From positions 59,844,333-59,908,332 of the forward strand of contig OX419756.1 of NCBI GenBank assembly GCA_948567375.1: a DNA stretch of 64,000 nt, in the 5' to 3' direction. Shown in pieces: positions 4,640-54,080 of this stretch. The position numbers and the translations under genes were made by a program. This DNA is from Lunularia cruciata (lineage: Eukaryota; Streptophyta; Marchantiopsida; Lunulariales; Lunulariaceae). The first letter of the stretch is position 1. Every line of letters begins with the position of its first letter. The notes under the pieces are model-generated. The model was given only the letters and a program-made list of their open reading frames with translations. It had not been told where the DNA came from and did no database searches.

Positions 4640-5020
4640 ACTATTAGTGGCTTGGAGAATGAAATAAGAATACCTCCAGAATATATGTTTGTAGAAGGTC
4701 CAATTTTCCAAGACTGTCTTCTTTGACTTATTTACTACCAAAATCTTCAAGCAGTGGTTGTGCCAATCCCTCATACACGAGAGATAGTGTGATCACTTGA
4801 TTGTTCCAAACTACTACTACTATGGAGGTTAGCATGCAAACAAAAAAATGAAATGACATTAGAGTTTGTTTATGTATCTCTATGCATAGGCGTTAGTGAA
4901 GATACAAAGTGGATACCTGGCATAGAACCCCAAAAGCCCAACATGGCCTACCCTCTCCCAACACAGCCCCTCTCCAAGCCCTCCAACCAAAGCCAAGGCT
5001 GTCCCTAACCAAAGCTATTT
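4640..5020. other. No gene recognised
   Basis: Unique-looking sequence with no coding signal I can support. Confidence 0.4.
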
Positions 5021-5023
5021 TTA

Positions 5024-5156
5024 TAAAGAGAAAAAGACAACCACATAGAACACATGAAGGGTGGGAAGACCACATCAAGCCATAAAAGGTAAAGATAAGG
5101 AGGTAGAATGGGGCTAGGACCCAATAGTATTGATATGAGAAATCTGCACTACCTTT
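5024..5156 (-). repeat. LINE-like family tail (copy in reverse)
   Basis: Read on the minus strand it has the blocks AGATTTCTCATATCA, TATTGGG..CTAGCCCCAT, GGTCTTCCCACCCTTCATG and TGGTTGTCTTTTTC. These match the 3' tail of the element at 10895-11035 and copies at 12380-12625, 14276-14415 and 55466-55556. It is a 5'-truncated copy. Confidence 0.65.
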
Positions 5157-5159
5157 TTT

Positions 5160-6160
5160 TTAATAAATTTTAGGTACTTTTATAATTACTAATTTATAAA
5201 TTGCATTTTTGTAAATTCCCAAGACCATTATTGTTACCCTAACTATAACTAGCTTCTTGGTTGAGGAGAGGAGAAGGAAGCAAAAAATAGAAGGATATTC
5301 TAAAACTTTAGAGAGCTTACTTGAATAGCTTACATGAGTGAATAGCCAATCCTATTCAGTTTTCAAATTTGGTTCCATTAATACTTAGATTGAAGGCTAT
5401 GGAGAATTGAGTAGAAAGTTATGAGTACTTTTAGGTATTTTAGATTTTAGAGTGATTACTTCAAATTGACAATGATGGGTTAGAAATTTTCATTTCTAAT
5501 CACTTTGTATTCATGCTTGAGTTCCATTGGAATCTAGTTTGAAATTTTTTCAAATATAAATTGAAAGTTATGAGAGTTTATACATTTAGGGTTTGGAAAT
5601 ATTTTATTTACTCATGTGAGTTGAGATGTGAGGGGTTGTGGTTTTGCAGGTATGGGGAAATATGGAGAGGAGCATTGTGTGTTATGATTATTAAAGCATT
5701 GGTGTCACAAACGCTTTACCTCACAAAGGGTAAAGACCTATGTGGAAGGCCGCACAAGGATTATGATTGGACCACTTGGGATGCTCACATGAAGTAAGCA
5801 ACCACATTGATGGCGATGGCACTTGGGATTATGCACGCTCTTTGTATCCCTTTGTTGACCATTTTAGGAATATTGATTGAGTTGTGGGAGTGGTTAGCAT
5901 CTCAAGTGGGTTATATCTTGAGGTTATTTGACACTAGTTTTCCATGTCCACATTTATTCCATAGGCTATCCCATACACTCCATGATGAAGCTAGATAGGC
6001 TTTTGCCTACCACTTGATTTTTTTGCCCATGATCCCTTGGATAAGTTAGCATAGTTCTTATTCCTCTTACTCCCTCAATGGTGCCTTCATTATGCTCAAG
6101 GGGGACCTGCGGAGCATAGAGAGGTGGCTGCTAGATATTATTGATTTTGATCCGAGGATT
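5160..6160. other. No gene firmly recognised
   Basis: The stretch starts AT-rich. From about 5800 it has long open frames (for example 5807-5998) that resemble decayed transposon coding sequence in composition. I cannot assign a domain. Confidence 0.35.
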
Positions 6161-18789: not shown

Positions 18790-19862
18790 TTCACTTTCCA
18801 CATAGACTGATCAGGCATTTTAATATAAACGTCATCTCATGCACAATATCCAAAGGCTCATCATCTACAAGATAAAATTTGCCAAAATCACCAGGAATGT
18901 AGTTCAACATACACTCCTTTCGTGAGGTAGAGTGAAAAGAAGCTCTTGAATCAAGAATCCATGACTCCATAGGATTGTCTGCACTAAGGATCAATACATC
19001 ATTGACTTCTTTTATAGCTGCATTCACTGAGTCCTCATTTTGCCCCTTGCTTGGATTCTTCTTTATGAGCCAATAGTTCTTTCTTGTGTGCCCCTTCTTA
19101 CCACAATGCCAACATCCATCACCTTTTGATCTGGACTTGCTCCTCCTCTTGGACTTGGATCTATTTTGATTGTCACTATGAAGCATAGTTCTTCCTTTTT
19201 TCTCAAGAGTATTCATGGCCAATCCAGAGTTTGTGCTTGACTCTCTCCTTCTAATATCTTCATTGAGTATCAAATTTCAAATCTCCTCAAACCTCAATTT
19301 GTTTGATCTACAAGAACTGCTTACTGCTATCACAATTGCACTCCAACTTTAAGGCAAAGAGGACATGAGAATTAAAGCGCACACTTCATCCTCAAAACTG
19401 ATTTCCATTGAATTTAATTTGCTCGTGATCAGGTTGAACTCATTAATATGATCTATGACAAAGTGACCTTCATTCATCTTAAGGTTGAAAAGGTGACACA
19501 TCAAGTACACCTTGTTGGAAGTTGATGGTTTGTCATACATATTAGACAAAGCTTTCAATAGACTTTATGTAGTCTTCTTCTCTAGAACATTGAATATTAG
19601 ACAAAGCTTTCAATAGACTTTATGTCGTCTTCTTCTCTAGAACATTGAATGCCACATTTCTAGCTACTGTTAGGCGGACAACTCCCAAATCTTATCTATC
19701 CATCAAATCCTAGTCTTCCTATAGCATGAGCTCTGGTTTCACACCTTCAAGAGGTACATTAAGGTTTTTTTGATACAAGCAGTCCTTTATTTGCATATTC
19801 CAGAAACCAAAGTCCTTATCATCAAATCTGTCTATCCTGACCTTTCGTTCCTCTCCTGTCAT
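18790..19862 (-). pseudogene. Copia 2 gag-protease remnant
   Basis: The likely gag start is the ATG at 19862 (MTGEERKVRIDRFDDKDF, then FWNMQIKDCL), a typical copia Gag opening. Further on, LSNMYDKPSTSNKVYLM and LNSMEISFEDEVCALILMSSLP are standard Gag text. The zinc knuckle at about 19130-19070 reads CWHCGKKGHTRKNY, so its last Cys is Tyr. The protease site at about 18960 reads ILDSRASFH, with DSGA changed to DSRA. A 55-bp tandem duplication at 19553-19650 also breaks the frame. Confidence 0.8.
19553..19650 (-). repeat. 55-bp tandem duplication in copia 2 gag
   Basis: CTTTCAATAGACTTTATGT followed by a CTTCTTCTCTAGAACATTGAA block occurs twice in tandem with one difference. Confidence 0.75.
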
Positions 19863-28996: not shown

Positions 28997-31900
28997 CTAT
29001 AGTTCGTCACTGCCGCTGGCAAGAGTCCTTCCATTGACGCCAACAAGCTCTGTATCGAACACCAGAGTTGCACCACCTACATATTCCAAGAAATAACCCA
29101 TTGTCAGAAGTGCTTTAACCATCTTACCACGTCTTCCGTATAAACCACTACCGAGGAAACGTACTGTACATACCAACCTCAAAGAAACTACATTATAATT
29201 CTAAACGTGTGAATAGTATATCCACATCATCAGGATCGCGTAAATGACCATGAAACAAACGAGGTGAAGTTTCTCCACATTCGATACCACAGTCAACACT
29301 TAAAGTCAAATGAAGTGGCCATTACCCAAGCAGCACCCAAGTTCTGAGATTGCTTGTGAACCATCCACCAACAAGCAGACGCCCCAGCAATTTGGCTTTC
29401 AAAATAAAACAAGTTGAAGGTAACAAGATATTTAACAAAGGGCCAATCACAGAAACTAAGTACCACGGGGTTAGTGAGAGCCATGAATTACCTGGGATCT
29501 TTGGTGGTGATCCACTATCACCATATCCAAGTTTGGACGGAATTTTCAATTTACGCTTCTCCCCCAAACACATTCCCAACAATCCTTGGTCCCAACCTGT
29601 AATAACCAGAAACACAATGAATCCATCTAGTTGACAACCCTAGAGAAGAAATTCGAATTGATATATGGAAAAAGCATAAATGGACGCTTCTAGCACATGG
29701 CTTTTGTGAAATAAACCTCCAAAGCCTTTCAGCGGATGTACTTGTTTAGTGTTCTGCCAACCTCAGACAGAACCACATCATTTACCCAGCTAAAGGAGAG
29801 GGATAACCCCCAAAACGCTAAGGTATCCACATCGAACTCCATATGCATCAATGGAAGCCTACTTACCTTTGATTACTGAACCTTGACCTAGCTTGAAATC
29901 AAAAGGGGCCCTTCCATAACTTGAATCAAACTCTGTGCCATCCACTAGAGTACCCTGCTCAGCCAATATAGATAAAGTCAAAGAAGCAATCACCAACCTT
30001 TGATAACTCGGCCCGCACCTAGGTCAAATTCAATGGGCTCACCCCTCCCATAGCTTTCATCAAAAACAGTACCGTCTGTGAGAGCCCCCTGTACCAGCAG
30101 TAAAGTAGCAAGTCAAGGGGAAGACTACGCATCATTGCCTTTGATCACAAAAGCTAATCTGACAACAACGGAGATGCTTAGGACTACCTAAATCTGTCGT
30201 TGAGCAATTCAACAAGCACGCCAGTTGAAGTAAATTCTTGTCAACCTGCCAATGCTTCTTTCAAGACATTCCGTTTCTGACGGATATTCAAGGGTCCGTT
30301 AGTTTTGTAGTAATGTCATTGTTTCCGTCAGAAACGGAATGTCTTGAAAGAAGCATTGGCAGGTTGACAAGAATTTACTTCAAGGGTAAACTACAGATAT
30401 CAAGGGTCCGTTAGTTTCTTATTAATTGATAAGAAACCCTTGATAAGTAACCCTTGATATATTACTTACTTATCAATTAAACTACGATGTAAACTACAGA
30501 TATCAAGGGTCCGTTAGTTTCTTCGTAGGTAACTCGAGGATGATGTCATGTCGCCCAAAAGTACATGGCGCTAACTCGACCGATCTTATTCCATATCCTG
30601 AATGGATAAGAATGCGAGGCAGAGCCGCATGTAAGATATTGCAAGAGCAAAAGCATCTAGAAACAATGTGTTTACGTGGTTACTAATATGTGGATGGCTA
30701 GATTTAGGGTTAGGCCAGTTCAAAATAAGATCCCAGAAAAATGTGGATGAAAGATGCACATTACAACATGTCCAGAAGACGCCTTCCAGCTGTTCACTGT
30801 TCAACACCCCTTGCGTCTTCCCAATGTCCAAGACGCGCGGTTAGTTATATTTGTGGTGCTGTCCTGGCCGAGCATGAACTGCTAAAGCCAAGGAATGCAC
30901 CGTCGAACACAAGCAGGGCGTAATATACAGTTCTAGTAAATAATCCGCACGGATGCATGTGAGCTCAGGAGAGATAATTTTGAAGGTTGGTGGCCACATC
31001 TAGTGGTATTACTGCGGAGGTTCAATAGAGACCATGGCGACCATGTTGAGAAACGTAGTGTGCAAAACTGCTCTGCTAATACTCTGTATCCTTTGCAACT
31101 TGTCCTAAGCAGTAGAATTGTGCTTGTATTGTTGCGGTCCTCGCTATACATAAAATGCGCCACATCTTCTGATGAGCTTGAAACGTAGGTCATCTAACAA
31201 GAATTAGCACGAACTTCATTACATTCAAAGCAGGCTGAACAATTTTGCTGTCTGTATAGATAAAAGTCTGCTCACTTTTGAAATTTTCCAGCTTACCAGG
31301 TGAAGTGTATCACATCACCCCACTCTGCCTCAAACGGGCCGTGATAGGGCCGTCCGCAATCAGAGGAACAAGCTTGACGTAATCTGGGGACCTGAAGCCC
31401 TCTAGTTGGACAAGGTTACAGGAAGTAGTGTATCCTTTAAGTCTGCTGATCGACCAAGGGCAACACCCCACATATGGGAGCAGAAGGTCACCTCGTATTA
31501 GGCAATTTAGGAGGTATGAAATTAGGCAAAGAAACAAACGGGATCAAAGATCAAGAGTATGTAGCGAACAGATAGATTCAGGTACGACTAAGGATATAAA
31601 AGGTCGGCGTCCCATGATCCGGCCAGCAGGATGGGGAGCAGTCGGTCTAACAACCTGGCCCATTGATATTTGCAATGTGACCGATGGCACGAGTCAAAAG
31701 GTATTTAAAGTGCTCATCTCAGGGTACAATTCTTAAATCCCTGGTTATTTCGATTGGGTTGTATAATAGATCATGTTCATGAAGCCGTCACCAGTATGCA
31801 GTATGGCTAGTGTCCACCGCTGTCATCTTCAATCGAAAAATTTAGTTTAAACTGTATCCTGGCCCAAATTACTACTTGAGAGTGAAGGTGGCATCCACGA

Positions 31901-33116
31901 AGAATTGTATTTGAGAACACTGACATGATAACTTATACATGATACTAACTGAACTAAGCCATCTGGACATAGCCGCATGAGTTGTAGTTCTAAGAGTCTG
32001 AGAAATGAATTAGCTTCCAGCTCAAAAGGAACGCGACATATTTGTTGAACAGTTGGACACAACTCCCAACAGACTACTCATACTCTCGGTATAGGGAAGT
32101 ACACATTTTACCAGAAAGTGAATTGCTGTTCCATACTCCAAATATGACATCCGACTCACATGTAATCATTGAACGCTCGGGACAAAGTCAACAGCTCAGT
32201 CATTTTCTGAAGGAATGGTTGTGTAACAAGCTTGTGTACTTACTCTGTAATGAACGCTAACTTTATCGCCTTTGTGCGCTTTCACCTCACATGTCTTAGG
32301 CTTGAACTGCGAAGAGCAGACAAAGAGTGCCCCAGTCAGGTACTTTATCCCCAACAAATAGCAGAACACTCTCACGATTACATAACTCTGAAGGTCCGGA
32401 TCTGCTCTAGAATAAACATCAACGTACGTTTCCGAAAGTTTACACCTGGTATTATTTAACTCGGGCCCCAGGTGCTCACATTGATAGCTCACTGGACGCT
32501 TGCAAAGCTTGCAACTTGCAAACGATGTACTGTAGCAAGAGAAAAAGACTATGATAGCACTTTCCTAATCAAAAAAAGAAAGACAAACACCTATATCCAA
32601 GGGAATACCTTCACTCCGATCTGTAGTTCCTTCACATCCTTATCGGCTTTGGCATGAACTACACACATCAACACATTATTATCAGATCTCATATCAACTA
32701 CAAAGCTGCATAGGCGACCTGATAAAGTGTGAGCTCCAACTCACCAGAATCAGTCCCTAGTTATCCTTCGAAGATTAAATACAACGATTCCAACTTGTTC
32801 AGGCCAAGGAAAACATTTCTACTGCTGAGACACGATCAAAGCTCAGTGCAAACCTTTCATCGTTCATCATTCTCATTTCTCTGTACGCATACCAGTAAGT
32901 TACACCCCAGCAACCAAACGGAACAACTGATAGAACAATTGCAGGCTCCATTTGGGAGTTCGTAAACCCTCGCTGTGTTGAGCACTACTCCTTTCCAATG
33001 AAAATGAAGGCGGCATGACCAGCATGACCAAATTTCTCACCTGAAAGAACACACGCCAGAAGGATGCAGAATGCAGCGGCCGCGAGCAGACAGCGATGGC
33101 GACTCCCCATTTTCAT
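28997..33116 (-). CDS. FKBP15: ER-type FKBP peptidyl-prolyl isomerase with a mutually exclusive exon pair
   Basis: Peptidyl-prolyl cis-trans isomerase that speeds proline bond rotation during folding, expected in the secretory pathway. Exons on the minus strand: 33116-33041, 32658-32609, 32306-32244, 30088-29998 (A) or 29954-29867 (B), 29596-29492, 29076-28997. The product is 154 residues with A or 153 with B. Residues 1-25 are a signal peptide (MKMGSRHR, then [16 protein letters not shown]). The domain follows: [26 protein letters not shown], the exon A/B loop, [40 protein letters not shown]. The protein ends SDEL, close to the K/HDEL retention signals. The order and text match plant FKBP15 proteins. 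Start: first ATG, with a second ATG two codons on. All junctions are GT-AG and keep frame. The 2.16-kb intron before exon A holds a perfect inverted repeat. Confidence 0.9.
29867..29954 (-). other. FKBP alternative exon B
   Basis: 88 nt, entered in phase 0 after VHYR and left in phase 1 at ATCAAAG|GTAAGT, a strong donor. It encodes [19 protein letters not shown] and SVIK. It is homologous to exon A (about 19 of 29 residues identical) with one residue deleted after the Arg. The FKBP12 position-46 equivalent is Phe, as in FKBP12 (PFKF). The acceptor is GGCTGAGCAG. Confidence 0.8.
29998..30088 (-). other. FKBP alternative exon A
   Basis: 91 nt, with the same phases as exon B. It encodes [19 protein letters not shown] and RVIK, closest to the standard plant FKBP15 loop (RGDPIEF). 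The position-46 equivalent is Ile. Its donor is weak (AAAG|GTTGGT). Only 43 nt separate its end from the start of exon B. Confidence 0.85.
30225..30383. repeat. Perfect 60-bp inverted repeat (39-nt loop) in the FKBP intron
   Basis: Arms 30225-30284 and 30324-30383 are exact reverse complements over 60 bp, with a 39-nt loop. It lies 137 nt upstream (in the transcript) of exon A. The loop carries CAAGGGTCCGTTAGTTTTGT, a motif repeated twice just beyond the hairpin. It could be a foldback transposon scrap, a young inverted duplication or a small-RNA precursor. Confidence 0.95.
30387..30523. repeat. 34-bp direct repeat bracketing a second stem
   Basis: TAAACTACAGATATCAAGGG and the following 14 bases occur exactly at 30387-30420 and 30490-30523. 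Between them, TTAATTGATAAG and CTTATCAATTAA can pair, enclosing two ACCCTTGATA repeats. It may be a small transposon with short internal palindromes. Confidence 0.85.
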
Positions 33117-43759: not shown

Positions 43760-45320
43760 TTCTAATATGAATTCATTTCATAGAGATGTTAGCAATGGAG
43801 TCAAGAAGTGTTGAGTAGCAATTAAGAGATGCTAGATAGTCTTTATTCTTGCCTTTTCTCTCCTTGACTTTGATGTTTTGCAATATTCTCTTACACCAAA
43901 AGTTGCATTTAGCCTATAGGTCCTCATATAACTAGACTTGTAATAAATGAAAGACAACGGAAGTGTTTTGAGTATCTTTTAGGACTCCTTGTGTTTTATG
44001 GGTAGATTTACATCAATTACATTACACTTTTCAACAACCTCTAAATTCAAATTCCAAAAGACTTCAAAATCAATAGATCATGGTTTCATAGTTTTTATTT
44101 ATATTGAAAAACAAAATCAAATGAGGTTTTACTCTTTGGTTTAAAAAAGTTAATTTCTGTTCTAGGTGAACTTATTTTAAATACCTATATTATCTCTTAA
44201 CAAATAGGTTATCCTCATAAACTCTCCACTATATAATATCTACTACCTAGATTATACTAAGTCACTTTGGCACTTAAAGCTAGAAGCAAAGGCAAAACTC
44301 AACCTCAACCTCATGGAACAAGTAAAATAATATCAAAAGTAGTGATTTTTCACTTGTACCCAAAAGCTCATACTTTTTCTACACCTTTGGAGTCACATCA
44401 TCAAACTCAAAAGTGTCTTCTTTCCTATTGAATTTTCTTCATCATTATCTTCCTCCTCCACCAATGACAACACTAAGTTATTAAAACACAACTTCTTTAT
44501 TTTCTTTATTTGAGACATTGCCATAAGTAGTGATCTAGAGACATGAGCATCAATCATGCTAAGTTCACAACAATGACACTATTACATATAGAGCATATGT
44601 AACAAAAGTGGGTGATCGGCATCTCTTGCCCAAATAAATTTCATGTAAAGCTAGTGATGGAATCTTGTCCCTTGACTAAGATGCATTCTCATATATGTTA
44701 GGACACAATGATCATGATATCTTGAGATTTTCTTTCACATTTTCAATTATGAGATGTTTGCACCTTAAATTCTCTTCTTCTATTACTAGATATTCATAGA
44801 ACAAGTAAATGATCTACATATCAAACCACATTGTTTATATTCTCATGATTAATGCATCATGGAAATTATCACGGTAATTAATGGTCCACATGGGAACTTT
44901 GAAAGAAGGTATGAGTTCAAAGCCAACATATATGTATTCAATGTGCTAACCTTGAACTCATATTCACAAAGTTTACCATTAGAAGATTGGGGTAATCTTC
45001 TTGGTCTTCACCACTTATCATAGTTAAGAGGATAGCATGTGCTCATACACAAGAGACTAGACATGATGATGTTATGTAAAGGTATAACTTCAATCTCATG
45101 TTTGCTTAAATTGAGCAAATTATTGATTGAAAGGACTAGTTTTGTGACCACATTTTGCATGGAGTTCAATATCTCATATCTAATCATCTTGGATATTGAT
45201 TGAGATAAATGCTTGAAAGTTATGAATATTTTACTTTTCTTGTAAATTTGTTAAATTTAGATTTAAAATATTTATTCAGTAAATAAATAGATAACTAAAT
45301 GACGTTATGAAGTGAAATTA
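43760..45320. other. No gene recognised, AT-rich
   Basis: No coding signal is supported. It is possibly decayed transposon sequence downstream of the copia scrap. Confidence 0.4.
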
Positions 45321-51804: not shown

Positions 51805-53037
51805 TCATGGCGGTAACAGGCATGAACCATGTAGCATGGCAGTAAGCATCCTAGTGACGGCCCTGATTATGGCTTGACTTCTTGACACATCGTGGGAAGT
51901 TTCCACCTCAGGAACCGCTGGCCAAACTCTCGTGTTTTTTATCTTAGGAACAACAAAGGATTTTTCATGTTTTTCTTCTTCCTTTCTTAGAATCTCGAGG
52001 GCACTATGAGCAGCCAGTTTCTTTGCCATACACTTCCTCCGGTTAGTCGCCGAAGCTATCAACTTCTCGTTCAGGTGAATCTCCATGACGTAAGTGTAAC
52101 TATCGCCGCGATGACAGTGAAACTTCAGAGCTCGAGGTTTGCATCCTTTTAGGCATCGGAATACCAACTCGCTCACTGGATGTTTAAGCATGGTCTGAGG
52201 TGTTACAATCGGTTGGAAAAATGGCTTGAAAACCTGCAAACAAATATTTTCATAACGGATCCTCCTACAAACTGCTAGTAAAGCTTTCGACCAACATACC
52301 AAGCATGCATAACGTAAGGCACAATGTGAAAGCAAGGCAAAACATTCAGCATCTCCGAAGTTACCTCCCAGACCACTACGTCCTGCATGTTGGAGTCGAT
52401 GTAAACTGCACCTGCCACCGATTCCAGAAGATCTCCCAGCACTTTGGGTGCTTTGAGGTTACCGAGGCCAAACGGGTTCAGTCCTGGTTTATTGAGTTCA
52501 TTCTGGATATCTTCAGCGAAATCATCGATCTGCAAACAACCAAATACTCGGGATTATGAACACAATCTTGAAACAACAATTCTCAAAGTACAATATCCAC
52601 TAGTTGTAAGCTATCTACTGAAATATTACAACTGAAACACACAAAGGATACAGTAATCCAGCACACGCTCACACCGGTACCTTAGTTCGTGTTGGTTCTG
52701 GTGCCTCACGCAGATAGAGGTGGAATTTGTGTTTGAGAGCAACTCGTGCAAAGTTCTCATTATTGATAGTTGCCTGCCGCAGCTCTGTTAAAACACATGG
52801 GGTAAGACCAGGATGAGTCACGAACAAATACTTCGTCACTAGATAGTTCAAAACTGCATCACCAACGCATTCAAACCGTTGATAATTTGATGAACCATAT
52901 GTTACTGCGTCTGCTAAGAGAGAACGTGTTCTGAACTTATATCCAATTGTCGTCTCCAAATCTTCCAGATTCTCATCCGGAACGAACTGCGCTATAGCTG
53001 CTGTCCTCATTGAATCTGAGTCAAACGAAACACTCAT
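51805..53037 (-). CDS. RNase III-like protein (RTL type) with one RNase III domain and one dsRBD
   Basis: Expected to cleave double-stranded RNA. Three exons on the minus strand: 53037-52681, 52529-52365, 52233-51805; 316 residues; GT-AG introns of 151 and 131 bp. The RNase III domain spans about 24-170. Its signature at 51-63 reads NYQRFECVGDAVL, keeping the acidic E56 and D60 of (L)E..GD. The second acidic pair is D152/E155 in PKVLGDLLESVAGAVYID. A double-stranded RNA-binding domain lies at about 191-257 (HPVSELVF, YVMEIHLNEKLIASA, AKKLAAHSALEIL). The layout fits plant RTL proteins such as RTL3, which act apart from Dicers. All four acidic residues are present, so activity is plausible. Start: ATG at 53037; an in-frame ATG 31 codons upstream gives a hydrophobic extension and is less likely. 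Confidence 0.85.
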
Positions 53038-53039
53038 AG

Positions 53040-54080
53040 CTAACAAAAGAACTCTCCAAATTGAACTATGAACGAACGTTAGGAACTCGAACCAAATGGA
53101 GTGAAGAAGTATGGTGAAAGCGAAAGACAAAGAAGAAATAGCGAGTTACCAATGTGGTGAATAAAACGATTCGAAGATCTGAAGGAGCGATTTTGAGAGG
53201 GAAACAACCTTACCGTGACAAGCGTTTGTGAAGATGAATCTGAGTTGGAAGATAAGCTTTCGTTGTTGAATTAGACATGTCACCAGCAACTGATCTAGAC
53301 ATGTCAACAACGGCAAGTACACATTCAGACAAGGATATGAGAGACAGAAGAGTGAGATGAAATAACATTATCCAAAATCAAATGAATATGCTTTCATTAC
53401 TATATCACTAATATTAGTGGGATGAAATAATATGTATTTTCAATTTCGGATACCAAATTAAACTGAATGAATCCATTGTAGTTTGTTTATATTATTTGTA
53501 ATTTATGGTGATTATCACTTATTGATATAATGGTTATGGATCACTAGACCTCTCCTTAAAGACCAAGTCCCCATGGCATTTGGTTGGGAATTTTAGTGAA
53601 AAATTTGTAAAAATTGAACATACTAACAAATGAACCAAAATTTATTAAAGATTAAAAGTTTTGCCATTTGGATTAATTTAATACCAAGAGAATAATAAAC
53701 GAATTTTTTTATGGATTCTATTCATAATTGAATATTATGCTCGTTCAACTTGCTTACATATGAAGGTGAATATTGTGTTGGTATACTTTAATTGTTCAAT
53801 TTGATTATCATCCGAACTAAATCCTTCAATTCCTTAGCTTACTTTTGCACTCTAGTATCACTTGGAAAAAATTTTCAGCTTATATGCCTTTCCCCATTGA
53901 GAGGTTGTAGAGTAATTTGAGTTTAATTTCCAAATCGATTTTACATTTTAATTTGATTGCTTGCTTCTCTCCATCTTTCCAATCTAAATCTTCTTTTTCC
54001 CGAAATTAAATTTTGTTCGTTAGATAGCGTTTACATTCTAAGTTTGCTATGCTTACTTTTTCATTTCAATATTGGTCATT
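53040..54080. other. Upstream region of the RTL gene, no other gene recognised
   Basis: It holds a small repeat, TAGACATGTCA, twice at about 53270 and 53302, flanked by GTTGTTGA and TCAACAAC. AT-rich beyond 53380. Confidence 0.4.

Follow-up and report, generated by a model that had tools for sequence, protein, structure and literature searches.

A candidate pair of mutually exclusive exons in a liverwort FKBP15-type gene, predicted to exchange part of the isomerase pocket

Our analysis of a 64,000-nucleotide (nt) stretch of the Lunularia cruciata genome (contig OX419756.1, positions 59,844,333 to 59,908,332), here referred to as the window, centered on an FKBP15-type gene of the endoplasmic reticulum (ER) type. 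The gene extends from position 33110 to position 28997 of the window on the minus strand, and its exons are listed in Table 1 together with the other features recognized in the window. A second in-frame ATG, noticed by eye, lies two codons upstream of the start of exon 1, and the start of the protein is uncertain by two residues. The encoded protein contains an FKBP domain (PF00254) with its pocket residues, and reading of the sequence revealed a hydrophobic N terminus and an end in SDEL; in models of the Marchantia proteins, the N terminus contains a helix. The product is predicted to be an FKBP of the ER lumen with a signal-peptide-like start and an ER-retention-like tail.

Table 1. Features of the FKBP15-type gene and of the rest of the window, in window coordinates; fractions give residues identical to the Marchantia proteins
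Feature	Position	Strand	Remarks
Exon 1	33041..33110	-	start codon and predicted signal peptide; 12/23
Exon 2	32609..32658	-	15/17
Exon 3	32244..32306	-	ends in HYR, phase 0; donor GTAAGT; 20/21
Inverted repeat, arms	30225-30284 and 30324-30383		perfect, 60 bp, 39-nt loop; in the long intron
Exon A	29998..30088	-	91 nt; 30 residues + G; 29/31 (record P0002)
A-B gap	29955..29997	-	43 nt; contains the donor of A and the acceptor of B
Exon B	29867..29954	-	88 nt; 29 residues + G; 30/30 (record P0001)
3′ part of exon B	29867..29887	-	last 21 nt, in frame after A via an internal AG
Exon after A/B	29492..29596	-	ends in PKIPG; 34/35
Last exon	28997..29076	-	ends in SGSDEL-stop, ER-retention-like tail; 20/25
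rRNA fragment	44037-44414	-	eukaryotic large-subunit rRNA (positions 2425-2804 of the 3401-position model); no other Rfam match in the window
Two ORFs	51805-53130	-	resemble dsRNA-binding and RNase III domains (by eye); perhaps an RNase-three-like gene
ORF	18791-19273	-	by eye, similar to the gag of copia-type retrotransposons, with a CCHC zinc knuckle

An earlier note on this DNA had proposed that two homologous exons of the gene, A and B, form a mutually exclusive pair, and a read-out of the sequence found both exons and the gap between them to be placed correctly to the base. Both exons are entered in phase 0 and left in phase 1, as the note had claimed: exon 3 runs to position 32244, where it ends in phase 0, and the downstream exon begins at position 29596. 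Use of A alone gives a protein of 152 amino acids and use of B alone a protein of 151 amino acids, while inclusion of both exons or of neither leads to a frameshift and internal stop codons. All donors and acceptors that were checked are GT/AG; compared with a simple consensus, the donor of A (AAG/GTTGGT) matches at 7 of 9 positions and that of B (AAG/GTAAGT) at all 9. The locus displays sequence attributes of a homologous mutually exclusive pair, namely, tandem internal homologous exons with the same phases and the same neighbors, each of which alone keeps the frame. The two exons have 19 of 29 aligned complete residues in common, and because 11 of these 19 are encoded by differing synonymous codons, the duplication is not recent. 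The codon differences also count against the extremely improbable reading that B (or A) is an unused duplicate exon, either recent or decaying; moreover, B is open, has usable splice sites, and encodes the protein sequence of the Marchantia B exon.

When the B form was used to search protein records, the first two rows were proteins of Marchantia polymorpha subsp. ruderalis, one for each form (P0001 for B and P0002 for A). The two proteins are identical to each other outside the swapped exon, and both records list the same longest contig (30125287). When flanks and exons were compared among the 213 of 268 proteins that could be parsed, the Marchantia pair was the only one of the 40 pairs listed to combine identical compared flanks with a differing exon. 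From these protein records, we infer a single Marchantia gene rather than two near-identical neighbors. Both exons are thus represented in a related species, and exon B, for which decay in close relatives had been considered, is intact in Marchantia. The identity of B at all 30 residues, compared with agreement at 12 of 23 in exon 1, suggests that B is maintained by selection. Collectively, the frames, the Marchantia records, and the intact B support the earlier reading, and on this sequence-based evidence, we assign a probability of about 0.83 to the reading that A and B are homologous exons of a liverwort FKBP15 gene that function as a mutually exclusive pair.

The further claim that exactly one of the exons must be used stood in part: joining the full A and B exons or omitting both does break the frame, but A joined to an AG inside B keeps it. 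Splicing of A to the AG that ends at position 29888 would remove a 110-nt intron and add 21 nt in frame, and further internal AGs of B also yield open frames after A. A protein record of Calypogeia fissa (P0109), a member of Jungermanniopsida, the other large liverwort class, has an A-type exon to which QGSVIKG, the seven C-terminal residues encoded by B, is appended. The in-frame join in the window matches this record, and a third splice form, with A extended by these seven residues, is possible. Calypogeia seems to keep the 3′ end, if not more, of a B-like exon downstream of A. As far as the sequences tell, the exclusion is not absolute, given that A could be spliced to the tail of B and that the product is recorded in Calypogeia. 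One could go further and propose a leaky exclusion in which the main choice lies between A and A plus seven residues, a long-loop or decoy form, with the full B form being minor. The 110-nt intron before the B tail and the form of the Calypogeia record would fit this proposal. Nevertheless, we consider it unlikely, because the conservation of the rest of B in Marchantia (30/30) would be unexpected if the last 21 nt alone mattered and because Marchantia has a protein record with the full B exon.

Searches of the genome with A-type and B-type queries, in which the best candidates were scored, revealed no second intact FKBP15-like gene, and the matches outside the gene were weaker FKBP matches. 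At about 41.725 Mb of C7 (bases about 4948-6114 of the segment C7:41720200-41730100), we identified stop-bearing fragments of FKBP15 exons 2 and 3, a putative partial and decayed pseudogene copy. The origin of B from a duplicate gene was rejected, as the best candidates scored included no other intact FKBP15 and the C7 copy consists of stop-bearing fragments of exons 2 and 3.

We then considered the pocket of the two forms, using FKBP12 numbering, which we take to apply here and with which an alignment of the Marchantia B form and a solved FKBP2 is compatible. The pocket residues F36, D37, R42, V55, and I56 are present in both A and B, position 46 is Ile in A and Phe in B, and the 40s loop of B is one residue shorter, all as the earlier note had described; charges also differ between the forms. 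Position 46 was surveyed by pattern matching in 169 parsed proteins of the 230 that two B-form searches had yielded (61 failed the loop pattern), a sample that is not neutral, and was found to be Ile in 74, Phe in 63, and Leu in 24. The prediction that one gene makes two isomerases with different pockets is therefore supported at the level of sequence, with the qualification that the Ile46 and Phe46 pockets are each ordinary variants; the unusual point is that both are joined in one gene. The Marchantia isoforms were modeled well, with mean pLDDT values of 87.2 and 86.7 and values of 94 to 97 in blocks of ten residues across the exon. In a structure search with the Marchantia B model, FKBP11 occupied the first row and the FKBP13-FK506 complex (4nnr) the second, the latter with a TM score of 0.92 by target length and 64% identity.

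For A to be spliced to B, the gap of 43 nt must house a donor, a branch point, and an acceptor; by eye, a TTGAC resembling a branch point was noticed in it, with the A at base 20. Plant introns usually need at least about 60 to 70 nt, a value for which the literature consulted here offered no source in plants, and by this measure the gap would be too short for removal as an intron. The mechanisms of exclusive use given in PMC6071210 include a too-short intron, a mismatch of U2 and U12 sites, degradation of double transcripts that have lost the frame, and RNA structures that compete with each other. By eye, no U12-type site was noticed at the A/B splice sites, and given their GT-AG ends, the short intron and frameshift decay fit best. 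In the mechanism that we propose, A and B would be rivals for splicing to exon 3 on one side and to the downstream exon on the other, and transcripts with both exons or with neither would run into a stop codon and then be degraded. One gene would in this way yield two ER-lumen FKBPs that differ in a strand and the 40s loop of the pocket, the A form having Ile46 and the full loop and the B form having Phe46 and the shorter one.

The long intron upstream of A also contains the inverted repeat listed in Table 1, which lies about 136 nt upstream of A and adjoins three copies of TCAAGGGTCCGTTAGTTT. A folding z-score of −16.9 was obtained across positions 30200-30560. No further copy of the hairpin was found in a genome search that skipped very common words, and since the search found the hairpin itself only, its interpretation as a transposon was rejected. 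The arms are identical and the element is thus probably recent, for which reason we set aside the idea of an ancient switch. We regard it as very unlikely that exclusion is brought about by this hairpin hiding or exposing the acceptor of A: the perfect pairing of the arms and the z-score would be in keeping with such an RNA-structure switch, but the exon pair is common to Marchantia, whereas the hairpin looks recent and is the sole copy found in the genome, and the 43-nt gap accounts for exclusion without it. The hairpin may, however, tune the use of A in the window species.

The age of the pair was approached through the distribution of the two exon types. The short B-type loop was present in 7 of the 169 parsed proteins (of 230), namely, the Marchantia B form and six others, of which the one named is a fungus (Wilcoxina). 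Exon trees were computed from 29 and 25 rows picked by hand (P0134 did not fit the exon pattern) and comprised just 31 columns, and the groups were defined with knowledge of a first tree. In these trees, liverwort A exons grouped with those of seed plants and a lycophyte, with ferns just outside the A group, while B grouped with mosses with support of 82/76 (29 rows) and 95/91 (25 plant rows). In AU tests, of which several were performed and left uncorrected, a single clade of liverwort A and B received a p value of 0.045 with all rows and 0.029 with plants, and a single clade of Sphagnum A and B received 0.0585 and 0.035, respectively. A constraint uniting all liverwort and moss exons was not rejected on these 31 columns (p = 0.18). 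The tree of the rest of the protein (27 hand-picked rows), built without the segment that lies between AHK and the exchanged exon, rejected a joint clade of liverworts and mosses (AU p = 0.012) and gave the liverwort rows a support of 38/0, which indicates that such short proteins track species history poorly. Taken together, the exon trees lean toward a split of A and B that would predate the split of mosses and liverworts.

The record of the moss Sphagnum troendelagicum (P0004) carries a B-type exon. A protein from a metagenome (P0234), which is sister to Sphagnum in the rest-of-protein tree (100/96), carries an A-type exon. A Sphagnum-type gene call (P0206; longest contig, 1261 nt) has an exon B and a next exon identical to those of P0004, and directly upstream of B it encodes GSLTDG and then a stretch that fits the P0234 A exon in shifted frames; judging from the translation, about 21 codons (~63 nt) separate the end of this relic from B. 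Aligned with the P0234 A exon, the relic scored 40.7, a value reached by 0 of 1000 shuffles (best, 27.5); when GSLTDG was omitted, it scored 30.7, again reached by 0 of 1000 (best, 25.2). With other templates, and with 500 shuffles for each, the scores and the numbers of shuffles reaching them were 40.7 and 0 for the Sphagnum-like A exon, 29.4 and 0 for Picea, 26.1 and 0 for Physcomitrium, 25.5 and 2 for Sphagnum B, 23.8 and 4 for the A exon of the window, 21.3 and 12 for Calypogeia A, and 16.8 and 106 for the B exon of the window. Shuffling of the template itself gave 0 of 500 at the score, with a maximum of 31.6. The relic strongly resembles the A exon of the Sphagnum-like protein and modestly that of the window, and from the template scores we conclude that the relic is a broken FKBP exon closest to the Sphagnum-like A type. 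It appears that at least one moss lineage once had A and B in tandem, and the protein records, together with a single predicted gene from a short contig, suggest that Sphagnum split the A and B forms between two genes. As a separate observation, the exon of Physcomitrium P0125 is mosaic-like, reading FDESYGRG as in A and then 14 residues as in B (14/14), a pattern that could result from fusion of tandem A and B exons; the picture in other mosses is less clear.

The tandem relic in P0206 is a stronger argument for age than the weak evidence of the trees. We consider the chances about even that the A/B pair predates the separation of mosses and liverworts and possibly goes back to the land-plant ancestor, in which case liverworts would use exclusive splicing, Sphagnum would have two genes and a dead A beside B, other mosses would have the B type, and seed plants would have the A type. 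Outside liverworts, lineages may thus have retained one type or put the types in separate genes, a step of the scheme that is less certain. A somewhat doubtful alternative is a younger duplication that occurred once within liverworts; the resemblance between B and the moss exons, and that between A and the exons of seed plants and the lycophyte, would then reflect convergence or shared ancestral residues, and the Sphagnum pair would be an independent duplication. Such a history would agree with the small number of alignment columns, with the animal and fern state of several B residues, which may be ancestral, with the AU result for liverwort and moss exons held together, and with the far better fit of the moss relic to the Sphagnum-like A exon than to that of the window. 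It has to contend, however, with a broken A-like exon that occupies the equivalent position ahead of B in P0206 and with AU tests that lean against single A-plus-B clades in both liverworts and Sphagnum.

Conserved homologous mutually exclusive exons are well known in animals, alpha-tropomyosin being one example. The pair described here is common to the window liverwort and Marchantia, has traces in Calypogeia and Sphagnum-type records, and is predicted to swap part of a catalytic pocket. If its deep origin is true, it would be among the oldest known plant mutually exclusive exon pairs, switching the pocket of an ER isomerase. As Marchantia is a standard laboratory plant, the functions of the forms and the cause of exclusion are directly testable. 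PMC2674458 concluded that, where plant genes can produce more than one functional protein through splicing, this capacity is not retained over evolutionary time. The titles and abstract openings in the portion of the literature listings searched held no description of exclusive exons in an FKBP, in Marchantia, or in connection with FKBP15 and splicing or liverworts. In the same listings, plant exclusive pairs are predicted (PMC3923563) but little documented.

That prediction, the Kassiopeia study (PMC3923563), applied to Arabidopsis the same criteria that describe our pair, i.e., similar length, phase, splice sites, and homology. In the portion of the paper available, it reports 99 internal candidate exons and calls them the first evidence of wide use in plants; none of these internal candidates is annotated there as exclusive, whereas here each product has a Marchantia protein record. 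In animals, exclusive exons such as FGFR2 IIIb/IIIc have the tandem homologous arrangement of our pair and the use of one exon that is predicted for it, and PMC6071210 names a too-short intron and frameshift decay, the two mechanisms proposed here, among the means of exclusion. In contrast to FGFR2 and alpha-tropomyosin, the present candidate pair is from a plant, belongs to an FKBP, and would swap part of a catalytic pocket. Plant FKBP15-1 and FKBP15-2 and animal FKBP2 (FKBP13) are single-domain ER FKBPs with a signal peptide and a tail ending in EL, a layout also predicted for the present protein; A resembles angiosperm FKBP15, and B has Phe46 in common with human FKBP2, but unlike in these proteins, one gene here bears both exon types. 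Finally, the portion of PMC3597508 available describes for fungal SKI7/HBS1 the same relation between a spliced pair in one lineage and one form per gene in another that is suggested for Sphagnum, the difference being that the Sphagnum case comes from protein records plus a lone gene prediction located on a short contig.
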